Shown: piece after piece, positions 1-61,494 of the stretch | Position numbering within the stretch: position 1 is the first letter of the stretch | Layout of the letters: each line of letters begins with the position of its first letter | Origin: Archivesica marissinica | Lineage: Eukaryota; Mollusca; Bivalvia; Venerida; Vesicomyidae | NCBI GenBank assembly: GCA_014843695.1 | Contig: CM026386.1 | Coordinates: 87,749,293 to 87,813,292 of the forward strand | Reading direction: 5' to 3' | DNA: 64,000 bases | Position numbers and translations under genes: made by a program | Notes under the pieces: model-generated | The model's input: only the letters and a program-made list of their open reading frames with translations | Told to the model about the DNA's origin: nothing | Databases searched by the model: none

Positions 1-3000
1 TACATTGATAGAATACTATCCACTACTATATGATGTATGACCATACTCTGTACTACATAATACATTGATAGAATACTATCCACTACTATATGATGTATGG
101 CCATACTCTGTACTACATAGTACATTGATAGAATACTCTCCACTACTAGCTGATGTATGACCATACTTTGTATTTACATACTACATTGATAGAACACACT
201 CCACTACTATATGATGTATGACCATACTTTGTACTTACATACTACATTGATAGAATACTCTCCACTACTATATGATGTATGACCATACGTTGTACTTACA
301 TAACACATTGATAGAATACTCTCCACTACTATATGATGTATGACCATACTTTGTACTTACATAATACATTGATATAATACTCTCCACTACTATATGATGT
401 ATGACCATACTTTGTACTTACATAGTACATTGATAGAATACTCTCCACTACTATATGATGTATGACCATACTTTGTACTTACATAGTACATTGATAGAAT
501 ACTCTCCACTACTATATGATGTATGACCATACTTTGTACTTACATAGTACATTGATAGAATACTCTCCACTACTATATGATGTATGACCATACTTTGTAC
601 TTACATAATACATTGATAGAATACTCTCCACTACTATATGATGTATGACCATACTTTGTACTTACATAGTACATTGATAGAATACTCTCCACTACTATAT
701 GATGTATGACCATACTTTGTACTTACATAATACATTGACAGAATACTCTCCACTACTATATGATGTATGACCATACTCTGTACTACATAATACATTGATA
801 GAATACTCTCCACTACTATATGATGTATGACCATACTCTGTACTTACATAATACATTGATAGAATACTCTCCACTACTATATGATGTATGACCATACTTT
901 GTACTACATAATACATTGATAGAATACTATCCACTACTATATGATGTATGACCATACTCTGTACTTACATAGTACATTGATAGAATACTCTCCACTACTA
1001 GCTGATGTATGACCATACTTTGTACTTACATACTACATTGTAGAAAACTCTCCACTACTATATGATGTATGACCATACTTTGTACTTACATAATACATTG
1101 ATAGAATACTCTCCACTACTATATGATGTATGACCATACTTACTTACATAATACATTGATAGAATACTCTCCACTACTATATGATGTATGACCATACTTT
1201 GTACTTACATAATACATTGACAGAATACTCTCCACTACTATCTGATGTATGACCATACTTTGTACTTACATAGTACATTGATAGAATACTCTCCACTACT
1301 ATATGATGTATGACCATACTTTGTACTTACATAATACATTGACAGAATACTCTCCACTACTATATGATGTATGACCATACTTTGTACTTACATAGTACAT
1401 TGATAGAATACTCTCCACTACTATATGATGTATGACCATACTTTGTACTTACATAATACATTGATAGAATACTCTCCACTACTATATGATGTATGACCAT
1501 ACTTTGTACTTACATAGTACATTGACAGAATACTCTCCACTACTAGATGATGTATGACCATACTTTGTACTTACATAGTACATTGATAGAATACTCTCCA
1601 CTACTATATGATGTATGACCATACTTTGTACTTACATACTACATTGATAGAATACTCTCCACTACTATATGATGTATGACCATACTTTGTACTTACATAA
1701 TACATTGATAGAATACTCTCCACTACTATATGATGTATGACCATACTTTGTACTTACATAATACATTGATAGAATACTCTCCACTACTATATGATGTATG
1801 ACCATACTTTGTGCTTACATAATACATTGATATAATACTCTCCACTACTATATGATGTATGACCATACTTTGTACTTACATAGTACATTGACAGAATACT
1901 CTCCACTACTATCTGATGTATGACCATACTTTGTACTTACATAGTACATTGATAGAATACTCTCCACTACTATATGATGTATGACCATACTTTGTACTTA
2001 CATAGTACATTGATAGAATACTCTCCACTACTATATGATGTATGACCATACTTTGTACTTCATAATACATTGATAGAATACTCTCCACTACTATATGATG
2101 TATGACCATACTTTGTACTTCATAATACATTGATAGAATACTCTCCACTACTATATGATGTATGACCATACTTTGTACTTACATAGTACATTGATAGAAT
2201 ACTCTCCACTACTATATGATGTATGACCATACTTTGTACTTACATAATACATTGATAGAATACTTTCCCTACTATCTGATGTATGACCATACTTTGTACT
2301 TACATAGGACATTGACAGAATACTCTCCACTACTAGCTGATGTATGGCCATACTTTGTACTTACATAGTACATTGATAGAATACTCTCCACTACTATATG
2401 ATGTATGACCATACTTTGTACTCATAATACATTGATAGAATACTATCCACTACTATATGATGTATGACCATACTTTGTACTTACATAGTACATTGATAGA
2501 ATACTCTCCACTACTATCTGATGTATGACCACACATTGTACTTACATAGTACATTGATAGAATACTCTCCACTACTATCTGATGTATGACCATACTTTGT
2601 ACTTACATAATACATTGACAGAATACTCTCCACTACTATCTGATGTATGACCATACTTTGTACTTACATAATACATTGACAGAATACTCTCCACTACTAT
2701 ATGATGTATGACCATACTTTGTACTTACATAGTACATTGATATAATACTCTCCACTACTATATGATGTATGACCATACTTTGTACTTACATAATATATTG
2801 ATATAATACTCTCCACTACTATATGATGTATGACCATACTTTGTACTTACATAGTACATTGATAGAATACTCTCCACTACTATATGATGTATGACCATAC
2901 TTTGTACTTACATAGTACATTGATAGAATACTCTCCACTACTATATGATGTATGACCATACTTTGTACTTACATAGTACATTGATAGAATACTCTCCACT

Positions 3001-6000
3001 ACTATATGATGTATGACCATACTTTGTACTTACATAGTACATTGATAGAATACTCTCCACTACTATATGATGTATGACCATACTTTGTACTTACATAGTA
3101 CATTGATAGAATACTCTCCACTACTATATGATGTATGACCATACTTTGTACTTACATAATACATTGATAGAATACTCTCCACTACTATATGATGTATGAC
3201 CATACTTTGTACTTACATAATACATTGATAGAATACTCTCCACTACTATATGATGTATGACCATACTTTGTACTTACATAGTACATTGATAGAATACTCT
3301 CCACTACTATATGATGTATGACCATACTTTGTACTTACATAATACATTGATAGAATACTCTCCACTACTATATGATGTATGACCATACTTTGTACTTACA
3401 TAGTACATTGATAGAATACTCTCCACTACTATATGATGTATGACCATACTTTGTACTTACATAGTACATTGATAGAATACTCTCCACTACTATATGATGT
3501 ATGACCATACTTTGTACTTACATAGTACATTGATAGAATACTCTCCACTACTATATGATGTATGACCATACTTTGTACTTACATAATACATTGATAGAAT
3601 ACTCTCCACTACTATATGATGTATGACCATACTTTGTACTTACATAGTACATTGATAGAATACTCTCCACTACTATATGATGTATGACCATACTTTGTAC
3701 TTACATAATACATTGATAGAATACTCTCCACTACTATATGATGTATGACCATACTTTGTACTTACATAGTACATTGATAGAATACTCTCCACTACTATAT
3801 GATGTATGACCATACTTTGTACTTACATAGGACATTGATAGAATACTCTCCACTACTATATGATGTATGACCATACTTTGTACTTACATAATACATTGAT
3901 AGAATACTTTCCCTACTATCTGATGTATGACCATACTTTGTACTTACATAGTACATTGATAGAATTCTCTCCACTACTAGCTGATGTATGACCATACTTT
4001 ATACTTACATAATACATTGACAGAATACTCTCCACTACTAGCTGATGTATGACCATACTGTGTACTTACATAATACATTGGTAGAACACTCTCAACTACT
4101 ATCTGATGTATGACCATACTTTGTACTTACATAATACATTGACAGAATACTCTCCACTACTAGCTGATGTATGACCATACTGTGTACTTACATAATACAT
4201 TGATAGAATACTCTCAACTACTATCTGATGTATGACCATACTTTGTACTTACATAATACATTGACAGAATACTCTCCACTACTATATGATATATGACCAT
4301 ACTCTGTACTACATAATACATTGATAGAATACTCTCCACTACTATATGATGTATGACCATACTCTGTACTACATAATACATTGATAGAATACTATCCACT
4401 ACTATATGATGTATGACCATACTCTGTACTACATAATACATTGATAGAATACTATCCACTACTATATGATGTATGGCCATACTCTGTACTACATAGTACA
4501 TTGATAGAATACTCTCCACTACTAGCTGATGTATGACCATACTTTATATTTACATACTACATTGGTAGAACACACTCCACTACTATATGTTGTATGACCA
4601 TACTTTGTACTTACATACTACATTGATAGAATACTCTCCACTACTATATGATGTATGACCATACGTTGTACTTACATAACACATTGTTAGAATACTCTCC
4701 ACTACTATATGATGTATGACCATACTTTGTGCTTACATAATATATTGATATAATACTCTCCACTACTATATGCTGTATGACCATACTTTGTGCTTACATA
4801 ATATATTGATATAATACTCTCCACTACTATATGCTGTATGACCATACTTTGTGCTTACATAGTACATTGATAGAATACTCTCCACTACTATATGATGTAT
4901 GACCATACTTTGTGCTTACATAGTACATTGATAGAATACTCTCCACTACTATATGATGTATGGCCATACTTTGTACTTCATAATACATTGATAGAATACT
5001 CTCCACTACTATATGATGTATGACCATACTTTGTACTTACATAGTACATTGATAGAATACTCTCCACTACTATATGATGTATGACCATAATTTGTACTTA
5101 CATAATACATTGACAGAATACTCTCCACTACTATATGATATATGACCATACTCTGTACTACATAATACATTGATAGAATACTCTCCACTACTATATGATG
5201 TATGACCATACTCTGTACTACATAATACATTGATAGAATACTATCCACTACTATATGATGTATGACCATACTCTGTACTACATAATACATTGATAGAATA
5301 CTATCCACTACTATATGATGTATGGCCATACTCTGTACTACATAGTACATTGATAGAATACTCTCCACTACTAGCTGATGTATGACCATACTTTATATTT
5401 ACATACTACATTGGTAGAACACACTCCACTACTATATGTTGTATGACCATACTTTGTACTTACATACTACATTGATAGAATACTCTCCACTACTATATGA
5501 TGTATGACCATACGTTGTACTTACATAACACATTGTTAGAATACTCTCCACTACTATATGATGTATGACCATACTTTGTGCTTACATAATATATTGATAT
5601 AATACTCTCCACTACTATATGATGTATGACCATACTTTGTACTTACATAGTACATTGACATAATGCTATCCACTACTATCTGATGTATGACCATACTTTG
5701 TACTTACATAGTACATTGATAGAATACTCTCCACTACTATATGATGTATGACCATACTTTGTGCTTACATAGTACATTGATAGAATACTCTCCACTACTA
5801 TATGATGTATGGCCATACTTTGTACTTCATAATACATTGATAGAATACTCTCCACTACTATATGATGTATGACCATACTTTGTACTTCATAATACATTGA
5901 TAGAATACTCTCCACTACTATATGATGTATGACCATACTTTGTGCTTACATAGTACATTGATAGAAAACTCTCCACTACTATATGATGTATGACCATAAT

Positions 6001-11649: not shown

Positions 11650-14895
<3,246 letters not shown>

Positions 14896-20290: not shown

Positions 20291-22974
20291 TCCCCATATT
20301 GTTTTATAGAACATGATGCGACACAATACATGTACACTCAGCAACATTCATAATCGGTCACCTTGTTTTTTATAATTATTTGGACCAATTAATAATCATA
20401 CAATATTAATATTTATTCCAGATTATTATACTGCGATTCATTGCATAACGATAGGTAAAAATATGTAATAAATGGCATTAATAGTATTGATATTATATTG
20501 TTATTAGTTTTCTCCAACTATTGTAAACAGGTGACCGAATAGGAATTGTGTTGAGTGCATACTACTATCATATCATTTTCAATATGTTTTACCTATGGTC
20601 ACAGGATTAATGTCATTTTCATTTCAACAGCAACAAGTATATAGAGAATATTAGGTTAATGTCTTATAAATTAAAATATATAAGACAGTAACCTAATATT
20701 ATATTTATCCTACATTCTGAGTGTGCACCCGACACAAAAACAAACAAACTAGCCATGACAGCTTACAAACTCGCTACGCACTTGGTAATATGTTGCGCAT
20801 TGATATTTCTATTTATAGATAAATGATAAATGACATTTCTCTGACAACAGTAGTTTCCAGAGTGGTCTCATCGAGTGCTGTTCATTCATCCCAAACAGCC
20901 AGAAAGTTTGCCTGTACACGACTTTCTTCTTGGGACATTTTCCAAACTCAGCAGACAACACAATGTTACGACAGACGCTTTGTTTATTTACAAACCGTAA
21001 TCTGTCTCATAAAAGTAGTCCGTCACGAAAGCTTTATTAGGCACTGACTAATAAAGCAACATTTATTAGGCAGGCCGTTTTTGTACGTTATTTCGCATGA
21101 AGGTAGAATAAACATGTATTTGTATATCGGTACGCTATGAGTATGTGTCAGATATAAACGTTGACGGAATAGTATCCTACAATCGACCTTCCGCAAGCCA
21201 GTCGGATATATTCCTCACACGAAATAATGCTGCAACAGTGAGCTGAAAGTGATGTATATAGAATTCTTGTTTATGTCAGATTATCAAGTATGTGATGGAT
21301 CGATCCCCATTTAAATACTAACACATATTCATGCATGTCAGAGGTCTTGCTATCAAGCTCCATTTGTCAGCATGTTTATATCTAGTAGATGCACATTTTG
21401 TATATACAATTTGGGAGTCATTTATTGATATAGTGACTTCAATTTCATAACTAATAATTAACCTTTTTCAACCTTACTAATTTTGGAAGAGTTTATACAA
21501 TTATGATTTAGATTATTTGTAACATTTCAAATATGTTATACATTTACGCAGACAATAGTTGCCTTTCGTGCTAGATAATTAGTAGGGGCTGTTAACTGGT
21601 ATCGCAATTTAGATTATTAACAATTGCGCATACTATTACGCAGCTTATCACCAACATTTATATATTATAGGCGGTCCTGGTTAAGAAAATTCCAAACATC
21701 GGTTCACCCATTGGCTGCCAAATCTTGGCAGGTGTGTTTTCGAACTGCGCATGTGTATATCCAATTTGGGATTAGTTTAAACAATATTTTATTGAAGAAT
21801 GGTACATAACATAGTACTAGTTGCAAAGTACAATTAGGATTGGGAAACAAGCTACATAGTAACTTAATATTGGAATACCGTTCCTTGGGATTATTTTGAT
21901 TGTTTAGATGATGGTGTCACACTTATCTCCAGACTGTTGAACCAGATGCACGCATAAATAAAAATAAACATTTTGTAAATTTCAGTTATGAATTGGATCT
22001 TTTAATCATACAGTGTCTATTAATTTATTTATATTTGTTAGATGACAGCTAACTTAAATATTAATTGTATTGTTGTATGTATAGTGTCAAGCCTATAGTT
22101 TATCAACATGTATGACAACACGAAAGTTTGTCGGGGAGTGAGATATAATTATACGGAGATCCCATGGCAATATTAGGAAATTGTTGTAACAACCTATTTG
22201 GTACCATGAGTTCTTGACAGGGATTCACAGGACGACATGATATGTTAATTAAGATAATAATTCTATTTCCCCCGATATTTGATTAGTTCTCTGTGGATGC
22301 GAAGCACCATAATGGCGATTACTAAGTTGGTGTGCATATCTTATAGGTATAAACTATTATACTGGGATGAAATGTTGCACGATTGCATTATGTTGCAATG
22401 AGCACATTGCTTTATAGATATTAAGCAATTGTATATGTTTTGTAGCATTACTTGAATAATCTTTGTTGATTATTAACATATTCATATTTAATTTATGACA
22501 TAAGCTCACATTTCACACATTTATGATATGAGACAACACAATGCAGGGGGAGCGGGAATGTTAATTCAAGTGTCCTTGGCCGAGGTCAACATCATCGTGG
22601 TTATAGTGGGGTTCGAATTCACGGTCACTTGGTTACATGGCGGATAAAGTATCCATTTCCATATATAAGTCTATGTAAATTATGTGACCCCACTTTGGAG
22701 TCAAATATGACCCCAGGATCACAACGTCATCAATCTTGGTAGAGGTTCACTAACTGATGCTGGATATCAAGTATCCAATATCTGGACATTGTGGTTTCTG
22801 GGAAGAATAATGTTTAAACATGTGTGCTATAATTATGTATATATATATTGATAGCGTTTAGAGTGTGGAATGTATCTTATAATTGAATAATGACGAACAA
22901 TGCAACTCAACTTTCAACCTCTACATCTTTAATGCATTCGTTAAATACATTAATGTCCAAGGAGATCGTAATAC
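20291..22974. other. Non-coding interval with one perfect-looking hairpin and old repeat fragments
   Basis: No exon was recognised. At 20647-20700 two arms, AATATTAGGTTAATGTCTTA and the inverted TAAGACAGTAACCTAATATT, form a 22-bp stem with one mismatch and a ~10-nt loop. 21190-21370 (AAGCCAGTCGGATATATTCC, TATGTCAGATTATCAAGTAT) is a diverged relative of 25320-25690. A GGGGTTCGAATTCACGG motif at about 22610 resembles a tRNA B box and probably marks an old SINE. Confidence 0.5.
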
Positions 22975-27060: not shown

Positions 27061-27082
27061 TGGCATTACCTATTCAAATTAA

Positions 27083-27415
27083 AGCAGTATGCTACCACAC
27101 TAGGCATTTCCCTAGACTATGCAAGCAGTATGCTACCACACTAGGCATTCCCTAGACTATGCAAGCAGTATGCTACCACACTAGGCATTTCCCTAGACTA
27201 TGCAAGCAGTATGCTACCACACTAGGTATTTCCCTAGACTATGCAAGCAGTATGCTACCACACTAGGCATTTCCCTAGACTATGCAAGCAGTATGCTACC
27301 ACACTAGGTATTTCCCTAGACTATGCAAGCAGTATGCTACCACACTAGGCATTTCCCTAGACTATGCAAGCAGTATGCTACCACACTAGGTATTTCCCTA
27401 GACTATGCAAGCAGT
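27083..27415. repeat. 41-bp tandem repeat, eight copies (copy A)
   Basis: Unit starts GCAGTATGCTACCACACTAG, contains GTATTTCCCTAG and ends ACTATGCAA. The internal CTAGG...CCTAG is an imperfect palindrome. The array precedes duplicated segment A. Confidence 0.95.
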
Positions 27416-28276
27416 GCATTATTGTCCATAATGTCCTTCCGTGCGTTATTTCACTATATGTATTCTTCAAAAACCCATACCATAGTCTACGTACTGTACA
27501 TGTTTTATATTTATTTTACAATGATTGCGAAACAAGCTTTAGCAACTTATATTAATCACTATTGTTGGCGGGCGGGCATGCAAGCGTACATGTGGTAATT
27601 AGTGTGTGGGGAATCGGAGTACCCGGAAATTACCAGCTGTCCGATCAGGCGACCTCCCTAATATATCACACTCGTAGAATCGAGTTACATTGGTGAGAAA
27701 CGATCGCGCTAACAACTGCGCTAATAATATGCGTATACGTATTGTAGTCAGCCATGACATTCTTCTGCAGAATGATTCCATAACTATTTATTTTACTATT
27801 TACAACTATGGACTCCCAATACGAGACGAATTATATAAGACTCTGTCTTTAAAATAGTTCCTGTATTTTAATATGTGTAAACCAGGTCCTTCTCAAGTAT
27901 ATATAAAGCATTGTGGTAACCCACCAAACCCTACGCTGTTCTACACAAGTATGGGATACTGCATCACGAACATTTACGCATTTCGCAGCACACACTTTAG
28001 TTTATTCAATACTGGGGACACTAGCCTTTTCTAGTATATATATATATGCGCCTGCATCAGCACCAGTATGGGCCATTTCCTGGGCAGGCTCCAGCGGTTA
28101 CCCTATACTTGATGCACAAACATCCGTAAGTAACTGCCAACTTTTTCAAATAAATGAGACACGGCCTTCTCGAATCTGGTGACCATCAGTGATGATAGGT
28201 TACAGTGGTATTCACATCATCGGTGACTTCGGGGAAAGATAATACACCAACCCGAAACGAGGTTCAATCGATCCTT

Positions 28277-28307
<31 letters not shown>

Positions 28308-28515
28308 GAAAACAGGGAGACCTGCAATATAATAATATCACAGATATACACACATATACTAAAATCTAATCCACGCGGAACATAACTAACCACTATCACA
28401 TAAATATCAAATTCTCCAAATACTAATATTGCCAATAAAAGGGTCTTACCAGAATCGACAATGATTACTGTGTATATTATACTAAATTAGATCAGAGGTA
28501 AGTAGTAGTATATAC

Positions 28516-28888
28516 GTCTCTTTGGCATCATGGACTGCGCATGCGTGGCGGCCATTTTGGAACGAGATCATTCATCATCGGATGACAGTTGACAGGTCAT
28601 TAACATAATAAGTGTTCATCAAAATAAAGCAATTTAATGTCTCTTTGGCATCATGGACTGCGCATGCGTGGCGGCCATTTTGGAACGAGATCATTCATCA
28701 TCGGATGACAGTTGACAGGTCATTAACATAATAAGTGTTCATCAAAAGAAAGCAATTTAATGTCTCTTTGGGGTCATGGACTGCGCATGCGCGACGGCCA
28801 TTTTGGAACGAGATCATTCATCATCCTCGGATGACACTTGACAGGTCATTAACATAATAAGTGTTGATCAAAAGAAAGTAATTTAATG
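28516..28888. repeat. 123-bp unit in three tandem copies with NRF1-like and YY1-like motifs (copy A)
   Basis: Units start GTCTCTTTGGCATCATGGAC at 28516, 28639 and 28762. Each holds TGCGCATGCG(T/C)G, close to the NRF1 palindrome, followed after a few bases by GGCCATTTTGG, close to a YY1 site. Known consensus sites support a promoter-like reading; no transcript start or gene is evident nearby, so function is inference. Confidence 0.85.
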
Positions 28889-29371
28889 TCTCACGTACAC
28901 ATCCATATCCTTTGTATATATGATGAAGTATGATTGAATTGATGCTATAGCTTATCACTACAAATAAATGGCTCAAACTTTATATATAAAAAAGCATAAG
29001 GCTTTCATAGTCACTCTGTATTTTTACAGTGACATGATCAGTATATATCTTAGACAATACTATAAAATATATTTCTGTGTCATTGTTTTATAATATATAT
29101 ACATTACGTATTTTATATAAACCGCCATATAATTCTGAAGTTATATTAATGTTTAAGCAAACTAGTGTATTTGGAATAAATAAAACAAGTAAGTCTTTTT
29201 GTTCAATTGTATACCACCCCTAACATTTTATTCAACTTTGCAGTCAGACTGTAAAACCGTCTAAACCAACATTGCATAAAGACATGGCTCCAGGTGTGAA
29301 CAAACAAATTAATCCAGTCAAAATTGACAGGTCACACTTGATTGCGAAACAAGATCTTTAAACTTATATAA

Positions 29372-29545
29372 ATCACTCTCGAGACCTCATTCCTGATGGA
29401 ATCCATCGCCACGAGGGAGAGAAGAGGCAACGTGGAATTTTAAATGCCTTGCCTAAGGGCACAATCGTTTGCGGCTCCAGCGGGGCTCGAACGCCAGACC
29501 TTTCGCACCTGAAGCGAACGCGCATCCACTGCACCATCACGACTT
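29372..29545 (-). repeat. SINE family B, tRNA-derived, with head
   Basis: On the minus strand GTCGTGATGGTGCAGTGGAT (box A region) leads to GGCGTTCGAGCCCCGC (box B), then a tail through GGCAAGGCATTTAAAATTCC to GGTCTCGAGAG. Duplicated at 35567. Confidence 0.75.
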
Positions 29546-30379
29546 TAATATGTTGTAAACATCCTTGAAGCTGTGTAAAGCCTGTATCATTCCGAAGTTT
29601 TGACTTTCAAACGTTTTTGAAAGAAGTAAAATACATATGATTGTAGTCGTAGTCGGATATGTACATATTTCGGACACATTTATTTAACTGAATTACTATT
29701 GCCTTTTTTTTCCAAACTAATCATGCACGTACTACTATTGATGCTTAATGATTTTGTGTGCATGTTACATGTACATGGTATGCTTTTTTGGATTTATTTG
29801 TTCTGGATTGGGTAGGGGGTAAATATTTAATATATGGTACATTGTGCTATTAGAAGTTATCTTCTGAGACAATTTTGGGTAGTCCAAAACATGAATTGTT
29901 ATCAGTTAGGTCTGCTTGAAAAGTGAAGAAGTTAATTATTGTGATTGGTATCAAGAAGACAAGTCTGACAAATGGCATTGCACACACTATATGTAGATTT
30001 AAAGTGAAATGTGTATCATGTGAAATGCACACTTCCCCCTGAATTCCCCTCACTTCCCCCTAAATTGGCTGGAGGGGGAAAGTGACTTCCCCCCTAAGTT
30101 TTGGACCAAAGTTGAATCCTGTCAGTAATTGTATAATGCTAGAGCATCCAACCATGTCTCTGTGATTTGTGCCACTTTCGAATATATGTGTTAATTTCGA
30201 ACCCGCCATTATATGGGTTCTAAGGCGTTTTATAGTCTAAGAAGTTTAATTTCATAGTACATGACCTTCTGAATTAAAGAAGCACCTGCAACTATGAGCA
30301 ACTTGTGATCACCAGCCTGTGTTAATTGGAGCCTGGTGATATGATAGGTTAGCGACTCTCCGGTTGTTATTGATTCAGG

Positions 30380-30672
30380 AAGACCCATTAAGACAGTATA
30401 TCTGACGCGAGCGGGTATCCTAGTAGAACATGGATCGCAGGTTCGATCCCCCGTCTGACCCTAGTCTTTCGGATGGGACTTTAAACCGAGGTCTAGTGTC
30501 GGTGTTTTACATCGTGCACATAAAATAACCAGAGGAGACACTGGAATGGGTCACTGTCTGTGTCATTGCACTATCATCCAACAATCTAAAATGACTAATC
30601 TCTTTAGGATGCGTCGCTCATATGGGCAACCGGTAGCGACGATAAAAATAAACGTAACAAACACTCCTAGTA
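30380..30672 (+). repeat. SINE family A, tRNA-derived, degenerate head
   Basis: Box B is clear (GCAGGTTCGATCCCCCGTCT). The body has GGGACTTTAAACCGAGGTCT and GTGCACATAAAATAACCAG and ends CAACCGGTAGCGACGATAAA. The same family occurs at 37838, 39640 (minus) and 53650. Confidence 0.8.
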
Positions 30673-30734
30673 GAATCACCGATCGTTCACAACCCATCAG
30701 GATAACACCAGTACATGAACTAATTAGACACTAA

Positions 30735-30812
30735 CAGTAGCATCGAACCTGTAGCGCTGAGGGGCATGTGATTTGATGTCAAAAACCATAGCCAGTCTGC
30801 CTCGGGGACTAC
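30735..30812 (-). repeat. SINE family L head fragment
   Basis: Minus-strand CGAGGCAGACTGGCTATGGT to GGTTCGATGC corresponds to the tRNA-like head at 25376; diverged. Confidence 0.5.
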
Positions 30813-31603
30813 GTCGTTGATGTTACAATAACAACACTTCATGGATTGGTAGGTAGAATACCGCATCTAGAATATGGATCGATGCCCGTTATTAAATAGC
30901 AACACATGTATACGTGTATATGTCAGTCTTATTTCACTAAGTTATAATATGGGGAAAGGGGCACATTTCTTTCAACATGAAATATCAAATATGATATATA
31001 TTACCAAGTGAATAACATAATCCATATATAAGTAACACAATCTGGAGTTCCATACTCGTTAATTTGTTTAAATGCATTGACATAAATTGATAACGTTTTA
31101 CATGTAGGTATGCATATTCTATACTATCTAAACTTCTTTGTCGCTGGTACCCACACCAAACAATACACATATAGATTGTATTCAATGCAATCTTTACATC
31201 AGTGATTTAAAGTTTGAACGGTTTTGTTGGTACAGTATTGGAAATAATCTGCTTTAGGAGTATATGACCGGGTACATACTTACTTAAACATCATTGAAAA
31301 GAACTGGTATAAAACTGGTATAGTACTATAATATTCATACTTGTATAGACGATGGCAGGATCTGGTTGTGATCCTCCCATAACACACATATACTGGGGTA
31401 TGAATTGTTAGCGAACCCCGACATTAAAGCAGCATACGTAATTGCGTTTGGGGTAGTACATAGCGCAAGGGTATGGTACGATATTATTTAAGTACAGTGA
31501 TGCCTCAGAAGTCCCTAACGTATATGCACGTACCGATGTTTCCCACAACGTCCCATTTCTAATCTACCTATTAAGTACATGTTCACCATGATCCATTCCC
31601 TAT

Positions 31604-32603
31604 NNNNNNNNNNNNNNNNNNNNNNNNNNNNNNNNNNNNNNNNNNNNNNNNNNNNNNNNNNNNNNNNNNNNNNNNNNNNNNNNNNNNNNNNNNNNNNNNN
31701 NNNNNNNNNNNNNNNNNNNNNNNNNNNNNNNNNNNNNNNNNNNNNNNNNNNNNNNNNNNNNNNNNNNNNNNNNNNNNNNNNNNNNNNNNNNNNNNNNNNN
31801 NNNNNNNNNNNNNNNNNNNNNNNNNNNNNNNNNNNNNNNNNNNNNNNNNNNNNNNNNNNNNNNNNNNNNNNNNNNNNNNNNNNNNNNNNNNNNNNNNNNN
31901 NNNNNNNNNNNNNNNNNNNNNNNNNNNNNNNNNNNNNNNNNNNNNNNNNNNNNNNNNNNNNNNNNNNNNNNNNNNNNNNNNNNNNNNNNNNNNNNNNNNN
32001 NNNNNNNNNNNNNNNNNNNNNNNNNNNNNNNNNNNNNNNNNNNNNNNNNNNNNNNNNNNNNNNNNNNNNNNNNNNNNNNNNNNNNNNNNNNNNNNNNNNN
32101 NNNNNNNNNNNNNNNNNNNNNNNNNNNNNNNNNNNNNNNNNNNNNNNNNNNNNNNNNNNNNNNNNNNNNNNNNNNNNNNNNNNNNNNNNNNNNNNNNNNN
32201 NNNNNNNNNNNNNNNNNNNNNNNNNNNNNNNNNNNNNNNNNNNNNNNNNNNNNNNNNNNNNNNNNNNNNNNNNNNNNNNNNNNNNNNNNNNNNNNNNNNN
32301 NNNNNNNNNNNNNNNNNNNNNNNNNNNNNNNNNNNNNNNNNNNNNNNNNNNNNNNNNNNNNNNNNNNNNNNNNNNNNNNNNNNNNNNNNNNNNNNNNNNN
32401 NNNNNNNNNNNNNNNNNNNNNNNNNNNNNNNNNNNNNNNNNNNNNNNNNNNNNNNNNNNNNNNNNNNNNNNNNNNNNNNNNNNNNNNNNNNNNNNNNNNN
32501 NNNNNNNNNNNNNNNNNNNNNNNNNNNNNNNNNNNNNNNNNNNNNNNNNNNNNNNNNNNNNNNNNNNNNNNNNNNNNNNNNNNNNNNNNNNNNNNNNNNN
32601 NNN
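31604..32603. other. Assembly gap of exactly 1000 N
   Basis: The run length is a round number, so true size is unknown. It lies between the end of duplicated copy A and the 41-bp array of copy B. Open frames that cross it are meaningless. Confidence 0.99.
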
Positions 32604-33622
32604 ATGCTACCACACTAGGTATTTCCCTAGACTATGCAAGCAGTATGCTACCACACTAGGCATTCCCCTAGACTATGCAAGCAGTATGCTACCACACTAG
32701 GTATTTCCCTAGACTATGCAAGCAGTATACTACCACACTAGGTATTTCCCTAGACTATGCAAGCAGTATGCTACCACACTAGGTATTTCCCTAGACTATG
32801 CAAGCAGTATGCTACCACACTAGGTATTTCCCTAGACTATGCAAGCAGTATGCTACCACACTAATCATTACCCTAGACTATGCAAGCAGTATGCTACCAC
32901 ACTAGGTATTTCCCTAGACTATGCAAGCAGTATGCTACCACACTAGGCATTTCCCTAGACTATGCAAGCAGTATGCTACCACACTAGGCATTTCCCTTGA
33001 CTATGCAAGTAGTATGCTACCACACTAGGCATTTCCCTAGACTATCCAAGCAGTATGCTACCACACTGGGTATTTCCCTAGACTATGCAAGCAGTATGCT
33101 ACCAAACTAGGTATTTCCCTAGACTATGCAAGCAGTATGCTACCACACTAATCATTACCCTAGACTATGCAAGCAGTATGCTACCACACTAGGTATTTCC
33201 CTAGACTATGCAAGATGTATGCTACCACACTAGGTATTTTCCTAGGCTATGCAAGCAGTATGCTACCACACTAGGTATTTCCTAGACTATGCAAGCAGTA
33301 TGCTACCACACTAGGTATTTCCCTAGATATGCAAGCAGTATGCTACCACACTAGGTATTTCCCTAGAATATGCAAGCAGTATGCTACCACACTAGGTATT
33401 TCCCTAGACTATGCAAGCAGCATGCTACCACACTAGGCATTTCCCTAGACTATGCAAGCAGCATGCTACCACACTAGGTATTTCCCTAGACTATGCAAGC
33501 AGTATGCTACCACACTAGGTATTTCCCTAGACTATGCAAGCAGTATGCTACCACACTAGGTATTTCCCTAGACTATGCAAGCAGCATGCTACCACACTAG
33601 GTATTTCCCTAGACTATGCAAG
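32604..33622. repeat. 41-bp tandem repeat, about 25 copies (copy B)
   Basis: Same unit as 27083-27415, but three times longer and cut off by the gap. Two copies share the variant CACTAATCATTACCCTAG 8 units apart, suggesting block duplication within the array. Confidence 0.95.
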
Positions 33623-34715
33623 GCAGTGCATTATTGTCCACAATGTTCTTCCATGCTTTATTTCAGTATATGTATTCTTCAACAACCCATACCATAGTCT
33701 ACGTACTGTACATGTTTTATATTTATTTTACAATGATTGCGAAACAAGCTTTAGCAACTTATATTAATCACTATTGTTGGCGGGCATGCAAGCGTACATG
33801 TGGTAATTAGTGTGTGGGGAATCGGAGTACCCGGAAATTACCAGCTGTCCGATCAGGCGACCTCCCTAATATATCACACTCGTAGAGTCGAGTTACATTG
33901 GTGAGAAGCGATCGCGCTAACAACTGCGCTAATAATATGCGTATACGTATTGTAGTCAGCCATGACATTCTTCTGCAGAATGATTCCACAACTATTTACT
34001 TTACTATTTACAACTATGGACTCCCAATACGAGACGAATTATATAAGACTCTGTCTTTAAAATAGTTCCTGTATTTTAATATGTGTAAACCAGGTCCTTC
34101 TCAAGTATGTCTAAAGCATTGTGGTAACCCACCAAGCCCTACGTTGTTCTACACAAGTATGGGATCCTTCAACACGAACATTTACTATCGCAGCACAGCC
34201 TTTAGTTTATTCAATACTGTGGACAATAGCCTTTTCTAGTATATATATATATGCGCCTGCATCAGCACCATTATGGGCCATTTCCTGGGCAGGCTACAGC
34301 GGTTACCCTATACTTGATGCACAAACATCCGTAAGTAACTGCCAACTTTTTCAAATAAATGAGACACGGCCTTCTCGAATCTGGTGACCATCAGTGATGA
34401 TAGGTTACAGTGGTATTCACATCATCGGTGACTTCGGGGAAAGATAATACACCAACCCGAAACGAGGTTCAATCGATCCTTTATATAATATATATATATA
34501 TATACAGAAAACAGGGAGACCTGCAATATAATAATATCACAGATATACACACATATACTAAAATCTAATCCACGCGGAACATAACTAACCACTATCACAT
34601 AAATATCAAATTCTCCAAATACTAATATTGCCAATAAAAGGGTCTTACCAGAATCGACAATGATTACTGTGTATATTATACTAAATTAGATCAGAGGTAA
34701 GTAGTAGTATATACG

Positions 34716-35083
34716 TCTCTTTGGCATCATGGACTGCGCATGCATGGCAGCCATTTTGGAACGAGATCATTCATCATTGGATGACAGTTGACAGGTCATT
34801 AACATAATAAGTGTTCATCAAAAGAAAGCAATTTAATGTCTCTTTGGCATGATGGACTGCGCATGCATGGCGGCCATTTTGGAACGAGATCATTCATCAT
34901 CGGATGACAGTTGACAGGTCATTAACATAATAAGTGTTCATCAAAAGAAAGCAATTTAATGTCTCTTTGGGGTCATGGAATGCGCATGCGCGACGGCCAT
35001 TTTGGAACGAGATCATTCATCATCGGATGACAGTTGACAGGTCATTAACATAATAAGTGTTCATCAAAAGAAAGTAATTTAAT
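34716..35083. repeat. 123-bp unit in three tandem copies (copy B)
   Basis: Counterpart of 28516-28888, units at 34716, 34838 and 34961. The first two units carry TGCGCATGCATGG, so the NRF1-like core is weakened there; the third keeps TGCGCATGCGCG. Confidence 0.85.
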
Positions 35084-35566
35084 TTCTCACGTACACATCC
35101 ATATCCTTTGTATATATGATGAAGTATGATTGAATTGATGCTATAGCTTATCACTACAAATAAATGGCTCAAACTTTATATATAAAAAAGCATAAGGCTT
35201 TCATAGTCACTCTGTATTTTTACAGTGAGATGATCAGTATATATCTTAGACAATACTATTAAATATATTTCTGTGACATTGTTTTATAATATATATACAT
35301 TACGTATTTTATATAAACCGCCATATAATTCTGAAGTTATATTAATTTTTAAGCAAACTAGTGTATTTGGAATAAATAAAACAAGTAAGTCTTTTTGTTC
35401 AATTGTATACCACCCCTAACATTTTATTCAACTTTGCAGTCAGACTGTAAAACTGTCTAAACCAACATTGCATATAGACATGGCTCCAGGTGTGAACAAA
35501 CAAATTAATCCAGTCAAAATTGACAGGTCACACTTGATTGCGAAACAAGATCTTTAAACTTATATA

Positions 35567-35741
35567 AATCACTCTCGAGACCTCATTCCTGATGGAATCC
35601 ATCGCCACGAGGGAGAGAAGAGGCAACGTGGAATTTTAAATGCCTTGCCTAAGGGCACAATCGTTTACGGCTCCAGCGGGGCTCGAACTCCAGACCTTTC
35701 GCACCTGAAGCGAACGCGCATCCACTGCAACATCACGACTT
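35567..35741 (-). repeat. SINE family B (copy B of the duplication)
   Basis: Duplicate of 29372-29545 with a few substitutions, such as CTGCAACATCACGAC for CTGCACCATCACGAC. Confidence 0.75.
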
Positions 35742-35930
35742 TAATATGTTGTAAACATCCTTGATGCTGTGTAAAGCCTGTATCATTCCGAAGTTTTGAC
35801 CTTCAAACGTTTTTGAAAGATGTAAAATACATATGATTGTAGTCGTAGTCGGATATGTACATATTTCGGACACATATATTTAACTGAATTACTATTGCCT
35901 TTTTTTTTCAAACTAATCATTGATGCTTAA

Positions 35931-37199
35931 AGGCCTGCAGTTTGACCCCGTCCAATTGTAAAGATTTATACTTTACTACCTGTTCCATGTGATTAGTGGC
36001 TTGTAACGGTTAATATGCACGATCACTCTGTGAGCTGAGAATTAGTCAAAATGAGGCCCTGACAATTTAAGTAAACTTATATTATTGATTGTAAAGAAAA
36101 TTGATAGTTATGAGTATTCAAACTACATAATCCAGATCAGCCCAGGGACATAGATTACATGTTATGTAGGTGCCTGATCAGCCGTAGCGTAATTACTGAG
36201 ACTGATAATTTGTATGCATGTATATAATATGTATGTATTTATATGAATAAACTATATGTGTTCGTTATATGGTAACCTTCATACTTCATTTAATTATATA
36301 TCTACAGTATTATTCGCAAGTTTTCTGTTATATTTTAAATATTTCTCTGTGTCAGTGTGTGCTTACCGATATTGATGCTACATAATAATCACAGTGAATG
36401 CTATGAGTACATGTATAATATTATAATTATAATCTCTTGAACATACGAGTATTACACATATTCTGCCGATTTCTACAAGATGCCATTGAGTAAAATAACA
36501 ATGTATGTAACTGATGAGCAGAGAAAAGAATTGCTGACTTTCTTGCAAAATAAGAACTGGGACGTAGAGATGGTAATAGAAGAAACAGCCACCGCCATGC
36601 CCGTTGCAGAGGCTGCTTACGTACCTCCCCCTATGCCTCAGCATGCTGAAGGTGTTGCTGAGTGTCCACTGTGCTTGTGTTCCCCTTGCATAATAAATGA
36701 ACAGAACAAACAACTTTGGTGGCCTGCTAATAATCGTCCACCGCATAATCTAAATTCACATGAGAGAAAGCTTCTATACAGGAGGTTTTGGGCAATGCTA
36801 TATAATTGTGGCGCATGGAAAGATGTCAGCTATATAGAGAGAAAAGTAGCGGCTAGAAGAGGAGACTGTACATGGCATAAGAGGGAACTGATGCCTGAAT
36901 GTGTGGTACAGCAATGCAGGAACTGGCTGCCTAACCCGCGCAACCAGCCTTATTTGGGCCATAAGTGGAGTTGAATTGTTTATACCAGTTGTAAGTACTA
37001 TAAAAATACAGAACTTCAATTTCAGCAATTTATAACCTCTGATATGTACGTGGGTCATAATAGATATAAGTGGTGCTCATGTATTAGATGTATACCATGC
37101 AGGGCCTCGCATGTGGCAAATACGATGTGCGTCGACCGTCACATTTGTACCGCTATTCCTCGTGTGTTTAAGGTCAAATATAGGTCAAACTGCAGGCCT
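35931..37199 (+). mobile_element. TTAA-flanked DNA transposon with 17-bp terminal inverted repeats and a P2X7 C-terminal-like gene
   Basis: The element starts AGGCCTGCAGTTTGACC and ends with its exact inverted copy, and both sides are flanked by TTAA (35927-35930 and 37200-37203). The paralogous segment A at about 29747 reads GATGCTTAATGATTTT with a single TTAA, that is, the empty site. Length is 1269 bp. It holds one 164-codon gene (36480-36974) and no transposase, so it is probably non-autonomous. TTAA target duplications are made by the piggyBac and Kolobok superfamilies; the AGG terminus fits Kolobok better, but this is inference. Insertion after the segmental duplication is the simplest reading; precise excision from copy A is the alternative. 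Confidence 0.85.
36480..36974 (+). CDS. Single-exon protein with P2X7 C-terminal 'ballast'-like domain
   Basis: 164 residues, ATG to TGA, no intron. Residues 1-58 are a short lead (TDEQRKELLTFLQNKNWDVE) and a Pro-rich linker (YVPPPMPQH). The rest shows CPLCLCSPC (cysteines 62, 65, 67, 70), a WW pair at 80-81, RKLLYRRFWAMLY (about 97-108) and, near the end, MPECVVQQCRNWLPNP then PYLGHKW. The order Cys cluster, aromatic-basic helix, L/MPxC, R, FP/LP, Y-x-G matches the zinc-binding cytoplasmic ballast domain of P2X7 receptors as I know it. No membrane segment is present. Such stand-alone single-exon genes are known to be numerous in some invertebrates; here the gene lies wholly inside a TTAA transposon. 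Its cellular role is unknown. A stray methionine upstream was not preferred because this ATG is the first in frame. Confidence 0.75.
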   Translation: MPLSKITMYVTDEQRKELLTFLQNKNWDVEMVIEETATAMPVAEAAYVPPPMPQHAEGVAECPLCLCSPCIINEQNKQLWWPANNRPPHNLNSHERKLLYRRFWAMLYNCGAWKDVSYIERKVAARRGDCTWHKRELMPECVVQQCRNWLPNPRNQPYLGHKWS

Positions 37200-37837
37200 T
37201 TAATGATTTTGTGTGCATGTTACATGTACATGGTATGCTTTTTTGGATTTATTTGTTCTGGATTGGGTAGGGGGTAAATATTTAATATATGGTAAATTGT
37301 GCTATTAGAAGTTATCTTCTGAGACAATTTTGGGTAGTCCAAAACATGAATTGTTATCAGTTAGGTCTGCTTGAAAAGTGAAGAAGTTAATTATTGTGAT
37401 TGGTATCAAGAAGACAAGTCTGACAAATGGCATTGCACACACTATATGTAGATTTAAAGTGAAATGTGTATCATGTGAAATGCACACTTCCCCATGAATT
37501 CCCCTCACTTCCCCCTAAATTGGCTGGAGGGGGGAAGTCACTTCCCCCCTAAGTTTTGGACCAAAGTTGAATCCTGTCAGTAATTTTATAATGCTAGAGC
37601 ATCCAACCATGTCTCTGTGATTTGTGCCACTTTCGAATAATTTCGAACCCGCCATTATATGGGTTCTAAGGCGTTTTATATTTTAAGAAGTTTAATTTCA
37701 TAGTACATGACTTTCTCATTTAAAGAAGCACCTGCAACTATGAGCAACTTGTGATCACCAGCCTGTGTTAATTGGAGCCTGGTGATATGATAGGTTAGCG
37801 ACTCTCCGGTTGTTATTGATTCAGGAAGACCCGGGAG

Positions 37838-38128
37838 CCCATTAAGACAGTATATCTGACACGAGCGGGTATCCTAGTAGAACATGGATCGCAGGTTCGA
37901 TCCCCCGTCTGACCCTAGTCTTTCGGATGGGACTTTAAACCGAGGTCTAGTGTCGGTGTTTTACATCGTGCACATAAAATAACCAGAGGAGACACTGGAA
38001 TGGGTCTCTGTCTGTGTCATTGCACTATCATCCAACAATCTAAAATGACTAATCTCTTTAGGATGCGTCGCTCATATGGGCAACCGGTAGCGACGATAAA
38101 AATAAACGTAAAACACACTCCTAGTAGA
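37838..38128 (+). repeat. SINE family A (copy B of the duplication)
   Basis: Duplicate of 30380-30672, with a small insertion (CCGGGAGCCC) near its start. Confidence 0.8.
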
Positions 38129-38184
38129 ATCACCGATCTTTCACAATCCATCAGGATAACACCAGTACATGAACTAATTAGACA

Positions 38185-38268
38185 CTAACAGTAGCATCGA
38201 ACCTGTAGCGCTGAGGGGCATGTGATTTGATGTCAAAAACCATAACCACTCTGCCTCGGGGACTACGT
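38185..38268 (-). repeat. SINE family L head fragment (copy B)
   Basis: Duplicate of 30735-30812. Confidence 0.5.
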
Positions 38269-39081
38269 CGTTGATGTTACAATAACAACACTTGATGGAT
38301 TGGTAGGTAGAATACCGCATCTAGAATATGGATCGATGCCCGTTATTAAATAGCAACACATGTATACATGTATATGTCAGTCTTATTTCACTAAGTTATA
38401 ATATGGGGAAAGGGGCACATTTCAAACTATGGTCCATTATCTTTCAACATGAAATATCAAATATGATATATATTACCAAGTGAATAACATAATCCATATA
38501 TAATTAACACAATCTGAAGTTCCATACTCGTTAATTTGTTTAAATGCGTTGACATAAATTGATAACGTTTTACATGTAGGTATGCATATTCTATACTATC
38601 TAAACTACCTTGTCGCTGGTACCCAACATACACATCTAAATTGTATTCAATGCAGCCTATTCATCAGTGATTTAAAGTTTGAACGGTTTTGTTGGTACAC
38701 TATTGGAAATAATCTGCTTTAGGAGTATATGACCGGGTACATACTTACTTAAACATCGTTGAAAAGAACTGGTATAGATACTATAATATTCATACTTGTA
38801 TAGACGATGGCAGGATCTGGTTGTGATCCTCCCATAACTCACATATACTGGGGTAGGAATTGTTAGCGAACCCCGACATTAAAGCAGCATACGTAATAGC
38901 GTGTGGGGTAGTACATAGCGCAAGGGTATGGTACGATATTATTTAAGTACAGTGATGCCTCAGAAGTCCCTAACGTATATGCACGTACCGATGTTTCCCA
39001 CACGTCCCATTTCTAATCTACCTATTAAGTACATGTTCACCATGATCCATTCCCTATTCTATGTGTGTACCTATTAGTACA

Positions 39082-58888: not shown

Positions 58889-61494
58889 TTGAAATACAGG
58901 TATATGTCGGCTTATCAATGTTCGCATATTAAAATTGACACCGTATTTGCAATCATTTATAATAGTTGTATATGTAACTTAATATCTAGTCATAGTGTCT
59001 CTAATCAGTTTGAGAATATATGTTATAATCTTTCAATGGCTGAAAACAGAGCAGATGTAAATGAAAACCTACATTCATTTTGTAATATTTTAGAGGATGT
59101 TTGTGCACCATTATTTAAAAAATATATCAATAGAAATACATGTAGATCTAGTAGTATAGGAAATTGTAGTAATGAAAAAAAACTACCGTATTTTGATGCA
59201 GACTGTATGCAATTAAGATGTAATTATTATAAATGTTTAAATAGTTATAGAACAAACGTTTGTGATCAAACTAGAATTGCTATGGTGCAGGCTAGAAGTG
59301 TTTATAAAAATACTTTAAGGAAAAAGAAATTTATATATGATAAAGATCAAACAAAAACACTTGAGGCTGCACGACTGTCAAATGCTAAAGCATATTGGAA
59401 AATGTTAAAAGGTACAAATGTTACAAACAATTCATGTTCTCTATCAACTAATGATTTTCAAACTTATTTCAAGTCCATAAATGACCATGGATCAAGGTTT
59501 TATCAACCTGAAGAGGATATAAAATATTTTAATGACCGGTATTTAAATGGGGAACTGTGTGTTATGTTTTCTGAATTAGATGTACCTTTTTATGTTGAAG
59601 AAATTATAAAAGCATGTAAACACTTAAACATTGGAAAGTCAGCAGGGTCAGACTATTTGTTAAATGAATTTTTTAAATATGGATCATGTTGTGATAATTT
59701 TGTATATGTATTACTTACTCTGTTTAATAAATTGTTTGATATGCGATATTTCCCCTCTGAGTGGACTGAAGGTTTTATAGTGCCATTACATAAAAAAGGT
59801 GATATTGATGATGTTGGTAATTATAGAGGTATTACTTTATTAAGTACATTTGGTAAATTATTCTCAAAAGTTTTAAACGAGAGATTACATAAATGGGCAG
59901 AAAAATACCATGTTTACATTGAAGCACAAGCTGGTTTTAGACAACATATGGGAACTGTAGATAATATATTTGTTTTACATGGGGTTATAGCACATTTGTT
60001 AAATAATAATAAAAGATTATATGCGGCCTTTGTTGATTATACTAAAGCGTTCGATTTTCTAACCAGGGATGTGATTTGGTACAAGCTTATAAAGTATGGA
60101 ATTAGGGGGAAGATGTTGGATATTATTAAATCTATGTATGAAAATGTGCGTTCACGGGTTAAGTATAAAAACATGCTAAGTGAGAAATTTGAATGTCTAT
60201 TGGGGGTACGACAAGGGGAATCGTTATCACCTTTTTTATTGTCGATGTATATTAATGATATAGAGGAGTATTTTATGTTAAATGGATTTAATGGACTAGA
60301 TTTAGGCATGTTGAAATTATTCTTGTTGCTATATGCAGATGATATTGTAATTATGTCAGAAACAGAGGAGGGTTTGCAGAAAGGTTTAATTTTATTAGAA
60401 GAATATTGTGATAAATGGAAATTGACTGTTAATACGATTAAAACTAAAGTAATGATTTTTAAAAAGGGTGGGAGAATTAGAAGAAATGTTAATTTCTTAT
60501 ATAAGGGCGAAATTATTAATATAGTTAATAAATTTACATACCTGGGTATTCTTTTTACTACGGGTGGCTCTTTTAATACATTTTTTGACACTTTATCTGG
60601 ACAGGCTTCTAAAGCACTATATAGACTTCAGTCTGAACTAGTAAAATATCCTGGTATTACTGTTAAACACAAATTAGATCTTTTTGATAAATTAATTTTA
60701 ACTATTCTTAATTATGGTTCAGAGGTTTGGGGGTTAAATGAAAGTAAAAAAATAGAAACAGTCCATTTGAAGTTTTGTAAGAATTTATTAGGGGTTAGAC
60801 ATCAAACCCAAAACAATTTTATTTTTGGAGAACTAGGTAGAACAACCTTAAGAAATAGAAGAGCTCTAAATGTTTTAAAATACTGGTTAAAAATTGTTCA
60901 ATTAGATAGTGTTAAGTATGTTAAAATTGTATATGATATGATGTATAGTGAAATAGAAATTAGACCAGATTATAGTAATTGGGCTTCAGGTATTAGAAAG
61001 TTATTACAAACATTAGGATTTAATGATGTATGGTTAAACCAAGGAGTCGGAAATGATATTTTTATGCAAAATTGGTTTTCAGAATTGAGTAACTCCACAA
61101 GGGCTAGAACTTATGTTTTATATGCAGACTTCAAGTTTCAGACATATATGAACGGTGTAATATTGATAAATTTAGAATAGCATTGTCACGTTTCAGAGTA
61201 TCATCTCATAGACTTGAAGTAGAAACTGTTCGATGGCATAGACCCTTAGCAATAACATATGAAGAAAGAAAATGTAGATATTGTTTAACTTTAGAAGATG
61301 AATTTCACTTTGTTTTAGAATGTCAGCCATATACCGATTTAAGAAAAACACATATTAAGAAATACTTTTGGAGAAACCCAATTGTTCCTAAATTTATTGA
61401 ATTGATGACCTCAAAAAATGTTATAATAATTAAAGATTTGGCTATGTATATAAACAAATCATTTCAAGTCAGAAACAACCTGTTCTATGACTAG
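58889..61494 (+). mobile_element. 5'-truncated non-LTR retrotransposon with reverse transcriptase, one frameshift
   Basis: A 763-codon frame (to 61180), continued in another frame from about 61150 to 61494, encodes a LINE ORF2 without its endonuclease. Reverse-transcriptase motifs in order: FIVPLHKKGD and NYRGITLLST (about residues 300-320), EAQAGFRQHMGT, AFVDYTKAFD (about 380), GVRQGESLSPFL, LLLYADDIVIM (catalytic YADD about 481), then FTYLGILFTTGG and LNYGSEVWG. The second frame has RYCLTLEDEFHFVLEC, a CCHC-type knuckle. A one-base frameshift near 61150-61180 splits the protein. The 3' region runs to about 61715 (AATAAACTCTTGAAACTCTTG). It lies antisense in a receptor intron. Clade is CR1/jockey-like at best; not assigned more finely. 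Confidence 0.9.

Follow-up and report, generated by a model that had tools for sequence, protein, structure and literature searches.

The insertion and its empty site

The 64,000-nucleotide stretch of Archivesica marissinica DNA analysed here (the window) contains a 1269 bp element at 35931-37199 that has 17 identical bases at either end and a TTAA beyond each. It encloses one open reading frame, which we call KolX-like after the protein that Kol0 elements of the Kolobok superfamily encode beside their transposase, as described in the text of Kojima & Bao (2022, PMC9587614). The features of the locus are:

35927..35930: TTAA, left copy of the target-site duplication
35931..35947, plus strand: left terminal inverted repeat, 17 bp, AGGCCTGCAGTTTGACC, 1191 exact places in the genome
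35931..37199, plus strand: transposase-less, KolX-keeping Kolobok element, deletion class 1
36480..36974, plus strand: 164-aa KolX-like (ballast-related) ORF, CxxCx4C ... PxC ... R ... YLGHKW
37183..37199, minus strand: right terminal inverted repeat, 17 bp
37200..37203: TTAA, right copy of the target-site duplication
29745..29748: single TTAA, the empty site in duplicated copy A

This bears out the insertion proposed in a sequence-only reading of the window, whose limits of 35927 and 37203 count both TTAA copies. The same reading had pointed to an empty site in a paralogous copy of the surrounding DNA, and this too is sound: the flanks of the element, joined with one TTAA, align to copy A at 96% over 1223 columns, 23 of them gap columns. 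The 14 bp immediately left of the site, which lie outside the element, are present in copy A and absent from copy B. The two copies form a segmental duplication of 95-97% identity, the left part of which pairs 27082-29724 with 33293-35920 (97.1%) and the right part 29745-31603 with 37200-39057 (95.2%). The window element differs from the consensus of its family by 0.71%, so it would have landed in copy B after this local duplication, exact excision from copy A being a conceivable alternative. A run of exactly 1000 N occupies 31604-32603 inside the duplicated region. Elsewhere the window holds a 429-aa single-exon ORF (12608-13897) with no Pfam match at E<=0.01, and a 763-aa reverse-transcriptase ORF (58889-61180; PF00078, 1.6e-30) that by eye is of a non-LTR-type retroelement.

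A high-copy family with a transposase-bearing long form

Searching the 1.54-Gb assembly for the terminal 17-mer gives 1191 exact matches, 588 forward and 603 reverse; the same 17-mer written backwards gives none, so the matches are not due to chance. We read 40 loci from the first 100 listed places, all on contigs C1 and C2, in a sample that is not random, its first 20 members having been picked partly for two close-set ends. Within it TTAA adjoins 91 of 93 repeat ends (up to two mismatches). The common short form has a 1366 bp consensus; the window copy is shorter by 97 bp, since some 53 bp are gone close to its left end and the 44-bp direct repeat is present once instead of twice. Divergence from this consensus is 0-0.71% in 17 of the 18 copies aligned, and the 16% of the eighteenth (L023b) belongs to a misaligned copy of other deletion structure. 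A search with the 164-aa protein gave 1484 candidate places in the genome, the best 150 of which were scored at 99-100% identity with no stops, a choice of the best that is no measure of intactness.

The sampled copies include several unusual arrangements. At L019 (C2:22787400-22792900) two complete short elements, 0 and 1 base from the consensus, stand in tandem in the same direction at 1726-3091 and 3096-4461, separated by a single TTAA. Copies at L010, L011, L012, L013, L014 and L015 are composites in which two left-type ends are inverted relative to each other, which suggests aberrant transposition or nested insertion, and one copy at L046 (1486-1749) has about six units of the 44-bp direct repeat that lies near the right end.

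The search for an autonomous relative with a transposase, advised in the sequence-only reading, leads to a long form carrying one, although none of the transposase-bearing copies read has all parts intact and TTAA on both sides. The most complete, L053, is 3547 bp long and has both repeats with both ORFs open between them, in the order left repeat, transposase on the minus strand, 164-aa KolX-like frame on the plus strand and right repeat; TTAA is present on its right and absent on its left. Its KolX-side sequence is 99.9% identical to the short consensus. L012, which has a transposase-like ORF between the same repeats, is bounded by TTAA on both sides, but its transposase is frame-shifted and its KolX rearranged. 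L050 retains both frames and the right end and has no left end; likewise L051, L052, L054 and L055 are each without one end, L051 and L052 also running into N. A genome search with the transposase gave 420 candidates, 96 of them scored, and a 517-aa frame without stops in 15 of the 100 places listed.

The ends of the window element, 5'-AG...CT-3', fit the 5'-RR ... YY-3' rule given for Kolobok in the text of PMC9587614, and the TTAA duplication that characterises Kolobok is present in the window as well as at the sampled ends. PF20700 (Mutator-like transposase) is the only Pfam family over the cut-off for L012 and L050 (E 2.4e-14 and 5.1e-14, respectively), and a DTWH sequence, read by eye in the transposase ORF, corresponds to the C/DxxH motif. 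By this family and motif the enzyme is assigned as putatively Kolobok/MuDR-like. Because it joins 5'-RR/YY-3' ends to a PF20700 transposase, the element is Kolobok-type and not piggyBac, which keeps the first half of the earlier description of it as Kolobok/piggyBac-like and discards the second, the transposase domain being PF20700 rather than a piggyBac-type DDE domain and the ends AG...CT. KolX beside the transposase, a trait that places the family putatively in the Kol0 lineage, is seen in L053 and L055.

Aligned to L053, the short form of the window (class 1) joins 1-361 to 2517-3547, a net loss of 2181 bp, mainly transposase, with the breakpoint inside a 13-bp stretch shared by both sides. 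The 40 loci together with the window contain 29 examples of it, and its junction lies at 334 + 313 = 647 places genome-wide (up to two mismatches). Class 2 (347|2433) is a separate deletion that also keeps the gene; it is found at 76 + 90 = 166 places genome-wide (up to one mismatch) and seven times in the sample, a second count of eight probably including the uncut L012 sequence, two mismatches away. Classes 1 and 2 have their left breakpoints within one AT-rich stretch, 14 bp from each other. In a third class (1301|1847) the deletion is internal to the transposase, and the one copy read (L063/L064) has the whole gene; its 279-aa transposase frame and score are common to ten of the places listed, itself included, e.g. 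C6:24291165. Single examples in the sample represent two more gene-keeping deletions (252|2607 and 305|2751) and the forms without an intact gene (737|3275, 740|3104, 1126|3247, 1124|3367 and 24|2910), of which 737|3275, the one gene-less class counted, occurs at 7 + 4 = 11 places genome-wide. The uncut left junction is found at 146 + 114 = 260 places, a figure that includes the long forms and some deletion forms.

With 1191 places for the 17-mer and junctions at 647 and 166 places, the proposal that ballast-like genes have multiplied by transposition in this genome holds. The window element is very probably a young, high-copy, non-autonomous derivative of a two-gene Kolobok element that has kept the KolX-like gene. 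The 2181-bp deletion, between short AT-rich matching stretches, would have taken out the transposase while sparing the KolX-like gene and the two ends; the short copies, whose insertion at TTAA is seen directly, would then have been moved by transposase made elsewhere, and the 0 to 0.7% distance of aligned copies from the consensus points to a very recent spread. The idea that the gene is cargo does not survive the long form. Capture of a host ballast gene by an unrelated TTAA element would suit a gene that is complete and single-exon, but since this very gene lies next to the transposase in the long form, inside the same repeats, and since Kol0 elements have KolX for their second gene according to the text of PMC9587614, we consider it highly improbable. 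The gene is rather the element's own second gene, left after the transposase deletion.

The KolX-like protein and the P2X7 ballast domain

The likeness of the 164-aa protein to the P2X7 ballast domain, also noted from the sequence, is one of homology at the profile level, a Pfam search with the window ORF alone finding no family at E<=10. The refutation set for it beforehand, the lack of a P2X7-C profile match, applies to the single sequence and is overcome only by comparison of profiles. A search for relatives returned three proteins, and a second round with their alignment 44, those three included; one is from Ixodes scapularis, the others being unnamed or 'hypothetical protein'. A protein 99% identical to that of the window (P0001) occurs in the wider collection (jgi, ena; longest contig 1660 bases). 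Among 13 relatives scanned, two (P0002 and P0008) match PF20478, the P2RX7_C family, below its cut-off (E 0.15 and 0.17). In alignment A2, the 45 rows of which are the relatives and the window ORF, C62, C65 and C70 are present in 42/42, C141 in 98% of the 45 and C67 in 76%; the family has four near-invariant cysteines and not the seven zinc-binding cysteines of the ballast.

Compared by hhalign, the family gives a probability of 2.4 (P 0.019) against human P2X7 alone, 16 (P 0.0016) against four ballast sequences and 87.9 (E 3.2e-6, score 43.9) against 29 of 61 PF20478-bearing proteins, the controls for this last score being 21.4 for the best of 200 column shuffles and 15.6 for the reversed profile. 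The match covers the pieces by which the ballast is defined: P.C....IR..(F/Y)P...Y.G, N..R..AYR.F and the CIT motif are all shared at profile level with the P2X7 ballast/ZCD (PF20478; main text of PMC7016195). Unlike the P2X7 ballast, the KolX-like family is missing the first cysteine motif, WCxCxxC, so one zinc site is predicted where P2X7 has two. An AlphaFold model of the protein has a pLDDT of 82.3 and a pTM of 0.62, and no P2X7 structure is listed by Foldseek (three weak matches) or VIA (eight chains), nor do PDB sequence searches return P2X7, whether the query is the protein, one of its relatives or the family profile. Homology to the ballast is supported by sequence profiles, without confirmation by fold. 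On the same profile evidence the family appears to be a branch of the ballast proteins with four cysteines, which the Pfam model misses and which is new as far as we have searched.

PF20478 itself has 30 matches in this genome, all above the cut-off, and none in 14 control genomes. Common to 18 of the 30 is a 77-aa last exon without stops, and one further match has a stop in it. Four such loci were read (L058-L061, on C14, C13, C1 and C9, respectively) and contain elements of about 2.8 kb, the inverted arms of which are 164 bp long and 97% alike in L058 and begin AGGGAGGGAC in L059 and L060. TTAA is present at both ends in three of the four; L061 has N on one side and an altered sequence on the other. 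Their Pfam score covers the last exon, and by eye the protein is encoded in two exons with WCxCxxC, CC, CIT and PSC, the classical ballast set. No transposase was recognised by eye in the ORFs of these four loci. Further groups are formed by L056/L057 and nine degraded PF20478 matches. Two TTAA families in this genome carry ballast-related genes, with different ends. The Pfam-positive genes lie in a TTAA element of their own, between inverted repeats that differ from the 17-bp ones.

Retention of the gene and comparison with known systems

Mutations were compared in 45 loci, comprising the 40 sampled, four further loci with transposase and the window. Full-length KolX frames are intact in 33 of 41, an openness explained by the youth of the burst. 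Of the changes in the gene that are singletons, 30 are non-synonymous, 11 synonymous and 3 nonsense, which fits the fractions expected from the non-coding mutation spectrum (.729/.198/.073; p = 0.69), and shared changes are too few (3, 3 and 1) to compare. Strong selection on KolX in each copy is not supported, as the singletons look neutral. Distinct changes number 51 at 21605 coding bases against 119 at 35776 non-coding bases (p = 0.04 overall, 0.16 for singletons and 0.10 for shared changes), and this lower density hints at some constraint; weak constraint on KolX in the source lineage is possible.

The gene has most likely been retained because the deletions spared it by chance and the burst is too young for decay. 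Alternatively KolX acts for its own copy, as a transposition factor in cis or near its source, so that gene-keepers transpose better, a reading we regard as possible but unlikely. The copy numbers lean towards such a role: the two gene-keeping classes counted are large, at 647 and 166 places, against 11 for the gene-less class counted, the gene is also present in the single copy of the third class that was read, and other gene-less or gene-damaged types appear once each among the 40 loci. The lower density of distinct changes inside the gene points the same way. The gene-less class has nonetheless reached 11 places, so KolX in cis is not strictly required, and this form and the neutral singleton changes lean against strict need; moreover, the gene-sparing deletions 252|2607 and 305|2751 are also present once each in the sample, and with left breakpoints 14 bp apart a deletion hot spot could explain both class 1 and class 2. 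That KolX helps its own element move, and that KolX-keeping transposase-less copies outcompete the losers, we think unlikely. If true, the ballast of P2X7 would have started out as a factor for transposition, and its action could be read from these natural elements with and without the gene.

Short KP elements repress or titrate P elements, and KolX from the short copies might similarly be a repressor or titrating factor acting on full elements. The 1484 candidate KolX places (the best 150 scored, all without stops) set against 15 open 517-aa frames in the 100 places listed from 420 transposase candidates would suit this, but such numerical excess is usual for non-autonomous elements and KolX contains no transposase part, making this reading improbable. 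Chance sparing in a young burst remains our preferred account. The role of KolX bears on what the domain distinguishing P2X7 first did, and this one genome has closely matched natural elements of three kinds, some with both transposase and KolX, some with KolX alone and some that have lost KolX. The genome also suggests that some invertebrate genes annotated 'P2X7-like' are high-copy transposon genes.

The wider meaning drawn from the window, that ballast genes multiply as transposon genes and that the P2X7 tail came from one, is right but was already published in 2022: according to the text of PMC9587614 KolX has the ballast fold and its fusion to a P2X4-like gene gave rise to P2X7, and both Kolobok elements carrying KolX genes and this origin of the P2X7 tail are already known. 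Ballast genes had earlier been found across animals (Rump et al. 2020, PMC7016195), in a paper whose main text does not contain the stem 'transpos'. The literature covered was not found to state a function for KolX.

The present family resembles Kol0, as the text of PMC9587614 describes it, in its TTAA duplication, 5'-RR/YY-3' ends, DDE-type transposase and ballast-related second gene, and differs from it in that the window copy is without transposase and in having four near-invariant cysteines where that text gives seven in the ballast fold. A few piggyBac families, by the same text, encode a KolX-like protein in which most of the cysteines are missing; the family described here is set apart from these, by description, through its Mutator/Kolobok-like transposase and AG ends. 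KolX-only derivatives are not described in the text of PMC9587614, and such elements were not found among the article texts listed on Kolobok, KolX, P2X7 and transposons. Xenopus Kolobok ends start with AG at the TTAA (text of PMC6004289), and a close parallel to the short copies is offered by the Xenopus T2-MITEs of the same text, which are high-copy, transposase-less, TTAA-flanked and presumed Kolobok derivatives with an AGGRR terminal motif. Unlike the T2-MITEs, for which that text mentions no coding gene, the elements in this genome have kept their accessory gene, and transposase-less derivatives that keep the gene, in bulk and from separate deletions, are new as far as we have searched.
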